NCBI RefSeq assembly: GCF_000597725.1
Contig: NZ_JFBL01000001.1
Coordinates: 1 to 64,000, forward strand
DNA: 64,000 nt
Reading direction: 5' to 3'
Origin: Sulfurospirillum arcachonense DSM 9755
GTDB lineage: Bacteria > Campylobacterota > Campylobacteria > Campylobacterales > Sulfurospirillaceae
The notes under the pieces are model-generated. The model was not told the DNA's origin. It was given only the letters and a program-made list of their open reading frames with translations, and ran no database searches. Position numbers and translations under genes: made by a program. Shown here piece by piece: positions 30,479 through 34,171 of this stretch (positions within the stretch are counted from its first letter, which is position 1; each line of letters opens with the position of its first letter).

Positions 30479-30991
30479 ATGAAAACTATACTCCGTTCTC
30501 TTCTCGTTGCTACTTTAGTAGCTGGAACACTTCAAGCTGGCAATATTACAAAACAAGAAGCTCTCAAAATTGTTACACCCTTCTACCAATTTTTAAGTGG
30601 CAAAGTCAGTGCGAAGGAAGTTCAACCTTCATTTGATAAAGATTGGAAGTCTTATTATGGAAATGGAGAAAAGGATTATCGTACTTTTAAACAAACTACT
30701 GGATTCTTGGGAAATGTATTTCGTAAAATGGTACCAAACCTAAAATGGGATATTATAGATACTAAAATGTCTGGTAACACTATCATTGTAAGAGGTGAAG
30801 GAAGTGGTACTGTAGCTGGTCCAGTTTTTATCACATCACCTGTAAAAAAAGGTAAAAGTTTTAAAATCATGAGTATTGATATGCATACGATCAAAAATGG
30901 TAAAGTAGTTAAAACATACCATATTGAAGACTATCGTACAGCATTTAAACAATTAGGTATTGTTAAACCATTTAAAAAAGCTAAAAAATAA
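30479..30991 (+). CDS. secreted SnoaL-like (NTF2-fold) protein
   Basis: 170 residues with signal peptide (MKTILRSLLVATLVAGTLQA). The mature part is a SnoaL/ester-cyclase-like NTF2 fold: FYQFLSGK near the start and IDMHTIKNGKVVKTYHIEDY near the end, the place of the family's His-Asp pair. Many such proteins have no known reaction. AAAGGAAT before the ATG; terminator follows. Monocistronic. Confidence 0.78.
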   Translation: MKTILRSLLVATLVAGTLQAGNITKQEALKIVTPFYQFLSGKVSAKEVQPSFDKDWKSYYGNGEKDYRTFKQTTGFLGNVFRKMVPNLKWDIIDTKMSGNTIIVRGEGSGTVAGPVFITSPVKKGKSFKIMSIDMHTIKNGKVVKTYHIEDYRTAFKQLGIVKPFKKAKK

Positions 30992-32527: not shown

Positions 32528-33754
32528 ATGACTCATAACACTTTTTCTATTCGTGCCATTTCGCCTTTATTCCTTGCCATATCTTTTTTGGCATTAGGGT
32601 ATGGAATCATTTTTACTTTCATAGGTATCTATCTTAAAGAGTCAGGAACTACTAATGCTAGTATAGGTGTTATCAATGCTTGCTTTTATTTAGGTTCTAT
32701 TCTAGCTTCTATTTTTAGCCAAAAAATTATTACTAACGTCGGGCATATACGAAGTTTTGCTACATTTGCCTCTGTTATGGTTGTTGCTTTTTTAATGCAT
32801 GCAGTTTTTTTCAATGAAATGTTATGGGCACTTTTACGATTTTTTTCTGGTTTTGCCTTTTATGCCTTATTGATTATTCTTGAGAGTTGGCTCAATGAAA
32901 AAAGCTCTCCAGAATCTAGGGGAACTGTTTTAGCAATTTATAGTATTACTTTTTATCTTTCAACTGCTGTTGGACAACTTTTTTTAAACTTAGGAGACAA
33001 CCTTAAACAACATCTTTTTACAATTGGTTCAGCGCTTATTCTTTGCTCTATTATCGTTATTTCATTAACCAAAATCAAAGAACCTTTTTTAGAACCCTTT
33101 GAAAGATATAGTTTTCCTAAAATCTATTCTGTTGTTCCTTTGGCTGTAACAGGAAGCTTTCTTGGTGGGATTTTTGTTAGTGGATTTTTCACCATGTTTC
33201 CTATTTATATCTTGAGTAAATTTGACTCCCTTGAAGTTGTATCATATTTTATGATTATAACATTGTGTGGAGGATTGATTTCTCAATGGCCCATAGGTAA
33301 ACTCTCGGATAAATACGGTAGACGTAAAGTGATATCCTCTAGTGCTTTTTTTACAGCTTTTTCCTCTCTTCTTTTTATTTTTTCTAGCTCTTCTATTATG
33401 CTCACTTATGTATGTGGGTTTTCATTGGGTATGACTATTTTTTCTATTTATCCTTTAAGTCTTGCTAGAGCAAATGATGTTGTTGATGAAAACAAAGATA
33501 TTGTAGAGATTACTCGAACACTCCTTTTTACTAATAGCATAGGTTCTTTTCTTTCCCCTTTACTCATAGGTATTTTATCGACTTACTTTGAGCACAGTAT
33601 GTTTATCATGTTTTTTATACTCAATATTTTCTTGGCTTTTTACGCTCTTTCTAAAGAGAAAGTTCCTGATGATGATATGAGTGAATATGTCAATGTACCA
33701 GTCGTTTCAGGAGCAGAACTCCCTCAGCTAGACCCAAGGCAAGATGCAGAATAG
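32528..33754 (+). CDS. MFS transporter (YcaD-like)
   Basis: 408 residues from the ATG at 32528, which has AAAGG six bases upstream; a TTG two codons earlier is possible. Twelve membrane helices. GKLSDKYGRRKV is the MFS loop 8-9 motif, and SGFAFYALLIILESWLNEK resembles the YcaD/YfkF group. Its function is presumably efflux or uptake of a small molecule, substrate unknown. A CTTTACATGTAAAG palindrome begins at the stop codon. Confidence 0.88.
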   Translation: MTHNTFSIRAISPLFLAISFLALGYGIIFTFIGIYLKESGTTNASIGVINACFYLGSILASIFSQKIITNVGHIRSFATFASVMVVAFLMHAVFFNEMLWALLRFFSGFAFYALLIILESWLNEKSSPESRGTVLAIYSITFYLSTAVGQLFLNLGDNLKQHLFTIGSALILCSIIVISLTKIKEPFLEPFERYSFPKIYSVVPLAVTGSFLGGIFVSGFFTMFPIYILSKFDSLEVVSYFMIITLCGGLISQWPIGKLSDKYGRRKVISSSAFFTAFSSLLFIFSSSSIMLTYVCGFSLGMTIFSIYPLSLARANDVVDENKDIVEITRTLLFTNSIGSFLSPLLIGILSTYFEHSMFIMFFILNIFLAFYALSKEKVPDDDMSEYVNVPVVSGAELPQLDPRQDAE

Positions 33755-33768: not shown

Positions 33769-34013
33769 TATCGCCAATTATAAGCTGATATTTTGTAAGC
33801 TATACTCATGCTACATACTTCTTATATACTCTGTCTTAGAGTCTATCCTTTTAAATTTTACTGCATGTAAACTAGTCACACAATAATTTAAAAGTTTAGA
33901 GGGTTATTGGAAAAAAGTTACCTCATAGTCAGCTTACGGAGGTGCTGAACAATGGTATATGCGTAATGAATCAATGTATCTACAAAATGGCATAAAAACA
34001 TGATTCTAGTATT

Positions 34014-34166
34014 GGGGTATAAAGACGTTTTTACGTCTGAAAGAAGGGATTTCCAAAGTATGTGGGTGTGTGCCTACTAGCAAACGCTTGTAGATGAGCG
34101 TTATCGCCGTCTATCCCCTCAACTCGGCTTTCAAAATGAATAAAACTGAGGGAAATAACTGGAGAG
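34014..34166 (+). promoter_or_regulatory. structured mRNA leader with competing helices (riboswitch-like)
   Basis: The 417 bases between the MFS gene and the HbpS/GlcG gene hold no supported ORF, but the last 160 are highly structured. GGGG-ATA-GACG (34014-34027) can pair with CGTC-TAT-CCCC (34108-34118), closing a junction with hairpins GTGGG/CCTAC (34062-34077) and AACGCT/AGCGTT (34083-34102). Alternatively AGACGT folds with ACGTCT (34023-34038), and CCCTCA (34116-34121) with TGAGGG (34147-34152), nine bases before the ribosome-binding site. I do not recognise a known riboswitch class. Upstream of it, 33908-33950 also shows ACCTC/GAGGT pairing. Confidence 0.5.
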
Positions 34167-34171
34167 TACAA

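Follow-up and report, generated by a model that had tools for sequence, protein, structure and literature searches.

Several riboswitch classes that act on translation, namely preQ1-I and preQ1-II, SAM-II, SAM-V and SAM/SAH, are H-type pseudoknots that lie next to the ribosome-binding site (RBS) and carry an A/U-rich third loop. Few riboswitches are known in the bacterial class that includes Sulfurospirillum. HbpS/GlcG-type proteins occur very widely, and little is understood of what they do physiologically or how they are controlled; a leader RNA gating such a gene, if real, would offer a handle on its signal. In the tisB mRNA of E. coli, a standby pseudoknot sits close to the 5' end, with some 100 nt between it and the sequestered RBS (PMC7708055). 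At the DNA level, RR2, an OmpR-family regulator of Sulfurospirillum, binds CTATW-N17-CTATW direct repeats at -35 (PMC7755780).

We analyzed a stretch of 64,000 nucleotides of Sulfurospirillum arcachonense DSM 9755 (the window; contig NZ_JFBL01000001.1, positions 1 to 64,000), in which a segment at 34014-34171 lies directly 5' of an hbpS-like ORF. The segment contains 43.8% G+C against 31.3% window-wide, a level reached by 0.8% of 153-nt stretches, as a first-pass annotation had sensed in describing its base composition as unlike its neighbourhood. The homologous leader of Sulfurospirillum sp. UBA12182 is also G+C-richer (36% versus 28% for its own locus), suggesting that the unusual composition is tied to the element or to where it came from. 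The annotation also found no likeness to a riboswitch class familiar to it, and Rfam covariance models indeed gave no family match in the window or the homologous loci L044, L039 and L041, the best scores coming from chance-level eukaryotic or Bacteroides models far under their gathering scores. A search for a second copy in the genome returned only chance-length matches, as did one through 150 relatives, plasmids and phages for DNA resembling the segment, and a literature search found no published hbpS leader RNA.

Promoter, predicted leader and homologues of the hbpS-like gene

The features that frame the segment, all on the forward strand, are the following.

33799-33820, forward: promoter element GCTATACTCATGCTACATACTT, 22 bp, an 11-bp direct repeat (GCTA.../GCTA...), kept 5' of all five Sulfurospirillaceae hbpS genes
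33825-33830, forward: -10 hexamer TATACT, at constant spacing after the direct repeat
33938-33942, forward: far-upstream GGAGG, present in five of five Sulfurospirillaceae leaders and in the high-GC locus L038
33994-34012, forward: sequence block AAAAACATGATTCTAGTAT, nearly unchanged in the UBA12182 alignment (AAAAACACGATTCTCGTAT) within an otherwise diverged leader
34161-34164, forward: Shine-Dalgarno GGAG, 8 nt after stem 2 (see below) and 7 nt before the ATG, kept in UBA12182
34172-34660, forward: hbpS-like gene for a 162-residue secreted HbpS/GlcG-type protein (Pfam PF03928, E 1.6e-39), start kept in UBA12182

The preceding MFS gene ends at 33754, and the conserved direct-repeat promoter, which sits 340-370 nt 5' of the ATG, supports transcription of the segment. 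Judging from this promoter, transcription would start near 33837, which would give a leader of about 335 nt containing the whole segment. The other hbpS promoters carry TATACT, TAGAAT or TAATAT as -10 at equal spacing, and this spacing also holds for other genes bearing the element. The corresponding pattern GCTATNNTCATGCTANNTACTT (11-bp direct repeat, then -10) has matches in 34 of the 44 family genomes, with 1-10 sites in each Sulfurospirillum (g3) genome and nearly no matches for the reversed pattern; the window's genome has only one exact site. The inspected sites lie mostly 5' of genes for ferredoxin, aldehyde ferredoxin oxidoreductase, Opr-type porins, ACR3 transporters and chemoreceptor-like proteins, and the genes with the element likely form a response-regulator regulon. 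The repeats at 33799-33820 resemble RR2 operators (PMC7755780) in being CTATA-like, with six-nucleotide gaps, and in overlapping -35, but most sites of the present pattern have CTAYR as the second repeat, and the repeats belong to promoter DNA and not to the RNA element. This resemblance may serve as a lead to the regulator, short of an identification.

The GGAGG motif is found 150-250 nt 5' of the hbpS start (about 120 nt in L038) in every leader seen (L037, L038, L039, L040 and L041), and possibly acts as a ribosome standby or mRNA-stabilising site. A leader peptide following it was considered and rejected, its reading frames not being common to the leaders.

Six of the 44 family genomes, including the window's own, encode an HbpS-like protein or a near relative. 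The closest homologue is that of UBA12182 (G010; L037/L044), whose protein is 95% identical and whose leader can be aligned with that of the window from the promoter through the start codon, with about 67% identity apart from CCCTCAA and TGAGGG, which are both unchanged. Three Sulfurospirillum sensu stricto hbpS genes (proteins about 71% identical) have shorter, different leaders without the element; treated as a separate structured group, these three gave no structural signal (z +0.2). L038 (G018, contig C25) is a high-GC contig in a Sulfurospirillum assembly, probably contamination or a recent transfer, and carries an hbpS gene with 77% identity together with a sigma-54-type regulator. With a single close alignable homologue, the structural comparison is one of two leaders. 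A model of the pseudoknot/RBS segment, searched across the 44 family genomes, matched only these two hbpS leaders; the next-best matches had E values of 0.02-0.9, and the six loci inspected fell within unrelated genes or at their borders.

A search for hbpS returned one relative in genome contigs and zero in viral contigs. On a Hymenobacter plasmid (L068, 2053-4727), an hbpS homologue lies between genes for a SnoaL-like ester cyclase and a formaldehyde dehydrogenase; a SnoaL-like gene is also found near hbpS in the window (30479-30991).

Conserved pairing in the distal leader

The distal leader contains the following paired and unpaired features, again on the forward strand.

34023-34038, forward: hairpin A, AGACGT-TTTT-ACGTCT; inner five pairs kept, two of the five compensatory, outermost pair not kept
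34045-34061, forward: unpaired block AGGGATTTCCAAAGTAT, conserved in UBA12182
34062-34077, forward: hairpin B, GTGGGTGTGTGCCTAC (UBA12182 GAAGGTGTAGCCTTC); five pairs kept, one of the five compensatory and one changed from G-U to A-U
34083-34102, forward: hairpin C, AACGCT-TGTAGATG-AGCGTT; window only, UBA12182 being 13 nt shorter here, with no counterpart
34106-34128, forward: pseudoknot stem 1, GCCG (34106-34109) with CGGC (34125-34128); four of four pairs kept, two of them compensatory, in an ungapped sequence alignment
34116-34152, forward: pseudoknot stem 2, CCCTCA (34116-34121) with TGAGGG (34147-34152); six of six pairs kept, sequence unchanged
34130-34140, forward: mini-hairpin TTCA-AAA-TGAA in loop 3 (UBA12182 TTTG-AGA-TAAA), short and weak; four of four pairs kept, one compensatory and one changed on one side

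The two stems nearest to the gene were read from an alignment of the final 70 nt by sequence alone, which is ungapped over both of them. Stem 2 is the local helix that the first-pass annotation had placed just 5' of the RBS, and it is indeed found there. Stem 1, which was not listed by that annotation, reads GCTA/TAGC in UBA12182. The stems interlock: the 5' strand of stem 2 falls between the two strands of stem 1, and the 3' strand of stem 1 between those of stem 2. Formed together, they would make an H-type pseudoknot with loops of 6 nt (loop 1), 3 nt (loop 2) and 17-18 nt (loop 3, A/U-rich). Since each stem has one strand in the loop of the other and both are kept, an H-type pseudoknot is likely; we infer that the stems form simultaneously. 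Nevertheless, a strong competing hairpin (CUCAAAG/CUUUGAG) is possible in UBA12182, and alternative folds of the window lie within a few kcal/mol.

Across stems 1 and 2 and the mini-hairpin, 14 of 14 pairs are retained in either sequence, whereas shifting the partner strand by 1-3 columns leaves 32-48% of cells paired. Under a column-shuffle null, a helix of this kind has a probability of about 3%; in a pairwise shuffle control, 62 of 500 shuffles did as well, a consequence of comparing only two sequences. Stem 2 does not vary between the two leaders, and the covariation amounts to a handful of changes. Upstream, GACGT/ACGTC of hairpin A becomes GATGC/GCATC in UBA12182, with an apical hairpin inserted, its 3' strand there having been placed by hand as MAFFT misses it; the hairpin B stem GTGGG/CCTAC becomes GAAGG/CCTTC.

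The whole leader folded as a single sequence is unremarkable (z -1.0 to -1.25), and positions 34010-34124 alone reach z -2.8. Consensus folds of sequence-only alignments gave z -3.5 for the pseudoknot/RBS segment, -4.1 for hairpin B and -2.9 for the whole distal part, compared with -0.6 for the upstream leader and -0.1 for the first 160 nt of the gene. Another hbpS coding stretch taken as a control gave -2.3, so pairwise values of about -2 to -3 do not settle the matter alone. The hand alignment gave -5.7, a value somewhat favourable to structure since the 3' strand of hairpin A was hand-placed. Between these two sequences, the structure is kept with compensatory changes, as expected for a cis-regulatory RNA, so that the lack of covariation which the earlier annotation had named as speaking against its proposal is not what the two leaders show.

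It is also conceivable that the segment has no function as RNA, and that its similarity reflects recent common ancestry with chance complementarity, or DNA sites for a regulator. The comparison of two sequences only leaves room for this explanation, as do the direct-repeat DNA operators that exist further upstream in the hbpS promoter. Nevertheless, the low consensus scores fall exactly in the pseudoknot/RBS segment and hairpin B, none upstream, and there are three compensatory pairs within the pseudoknot segment alone, which makes this explanation improbable.

The long-range helix and the coding alternative

The first-pass annotation proposed that the C-rich segment switches between the local partner described above and a distant G-rich one.

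34014-34027 with 34108-34118, forward: long-range helix GGGG-ATA-GACG with CGTC-TAT-CCCC, not conserved

The complementary stretches are all present where the annotation had placed them, and GGGG/CCCC alone gives a fold less than 1 kcal/mol from the best in the window, which is in keeping with a switch of the C-rich segment between two partners, 34014-34027 and TGAGGG. Nevertheless, UBA12182 lacks the GGGG, and there 4 of the 11 pairs of the long-range helix are broken and 1 is gapped. A duplex as good is reached by 15% to 46% of dinucleotide shuffles, and forcing the complete helix costs 7.6 kcal/mol over the best fold of the window. We therefore reject the long-range helix as a conserved state, and such a two-state switch is very unlikely. 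The broader notion of a regulatory RNA fares better than this particular switch, with a structured leader showing compensatory changes, no Rfam match and no coding signal. The kept AGGG at 34045-34048, within the unpaired block, is complementary to CCCT at 34116-34119 and could compete with stem 2, but with 4 bp this pairing is too short to judge or to carry the claim of a second state.

A decayed or small coding sequence would be another source of conservation. An 18-codon stretch over the pseudoknot gives similar peptides in UBA12182 and the window (one of them IVAIFPLKVAFEINSIEG), and the differences fall mostly in third positions (10 of 20). This bias is not significant (p 0.25), however, and relative to hbpS the stretch is in frame in the window and out of frame in UBA12182. 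Moreover, the frame contains stops and no usable start codon, and the spacing of the conserved blocks differs by indels of 13 and 14 nt. These features make the gene fragment that the earlier annotation had named as its own alternative unlikely, and a coding origin in general highly doubtful. We regard the segment as non-coding, the reading frame not being kept between the homologues.

Putative function and comparison with known leaders

No intrinsic terminator or terminator-like site was found in the leader, so any control would act on translation or mRNA stability. With its 3' end at position -20 relative to the start codon, stem 2 stops 8 nt short of the Shine-Dalgarno sequence, where the 30S footprint is expected to have its upstream boundary. 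Our leading reading, a tentative one, is that hairpins A and B and the H-type pseudoknot in the 3' part of the leader form a cis-acting element of translational control. The mRNA leader would carry A and B, followed by the pseudoknot ending just before the hbpS Shine-Dalgarno sequence; once folded, the pseudoknot would stand against the 30S footprint and hinder or organise 30S docking, thereby altering initiation. Opening of the pseudoknot, or pairing of CCCU elsewhere, would change initiation, and a ligand, a protein or the ribosome could shift the balance between folds. An effect on hbpS expression, and a signal in the form of a metabolite, a protein or ribosomal access, are what this arrangement would imply.

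A constitutive structured 5' UTR that senses nothing, in which the hairpins together with the pseudoknot would protect the mRNA or aid 30S loading with GGAGG as standby site, is a less likely but serious alternative. All five Sulfurospirillaceae hbpS leaders are long and have a far-upstream GGAGG within otherwise differing sequences, the comparison of the two leaders revealed no kept second conformation, and the tisB mRNA provides a precedent for a pseudoknot combined with a single-stranded standby region (PMC7708055). This alternative leaves unexplained that CCCTCAA and TGAGGG, by the Shine-Dalgarno sequence, belong to the best-preserved parts of the leader, and the standby role of GGAGG would itself be an inferred one.

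A more specific form of the control reading is that of a novel class of small-molecule riboswitch, in which a compact H-type pseudoknot would sense a signal linked to the HbpS-like protein and gate its translation; we consider this improbable. Heme, iron or an aldehyde might be such signals, as a guess from the relatives of HbpS only, and none of our results ties the element to heme, B12, glycolate or metals. Altogether, the local parts of the first observation are real, and the segment is a credible new candidate leader RNA with two members.

Compared with the preQ1 and SAM-type riboswitches, this candidate is also a small H-type pseudoknot with an A/U-rich loop 3, located directly 5' of the RBS and without a terminator. 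It differs in having no counterpart in Rfam, in preceding a gene that does not belong to the biosynthesis or transport of those ligands, and in a stem 2 that stops 8 nt before the Shine-Dalgarno sequence, whereas theirs include it. With tisB, the candidate shares a long leader that combines a pseudoknot with a distant single-stranded ribosome-landing region (PMC7708055). In contrast to tisB, the hbpS pseudoknot abuts the RBS, which is not stably sequestered.
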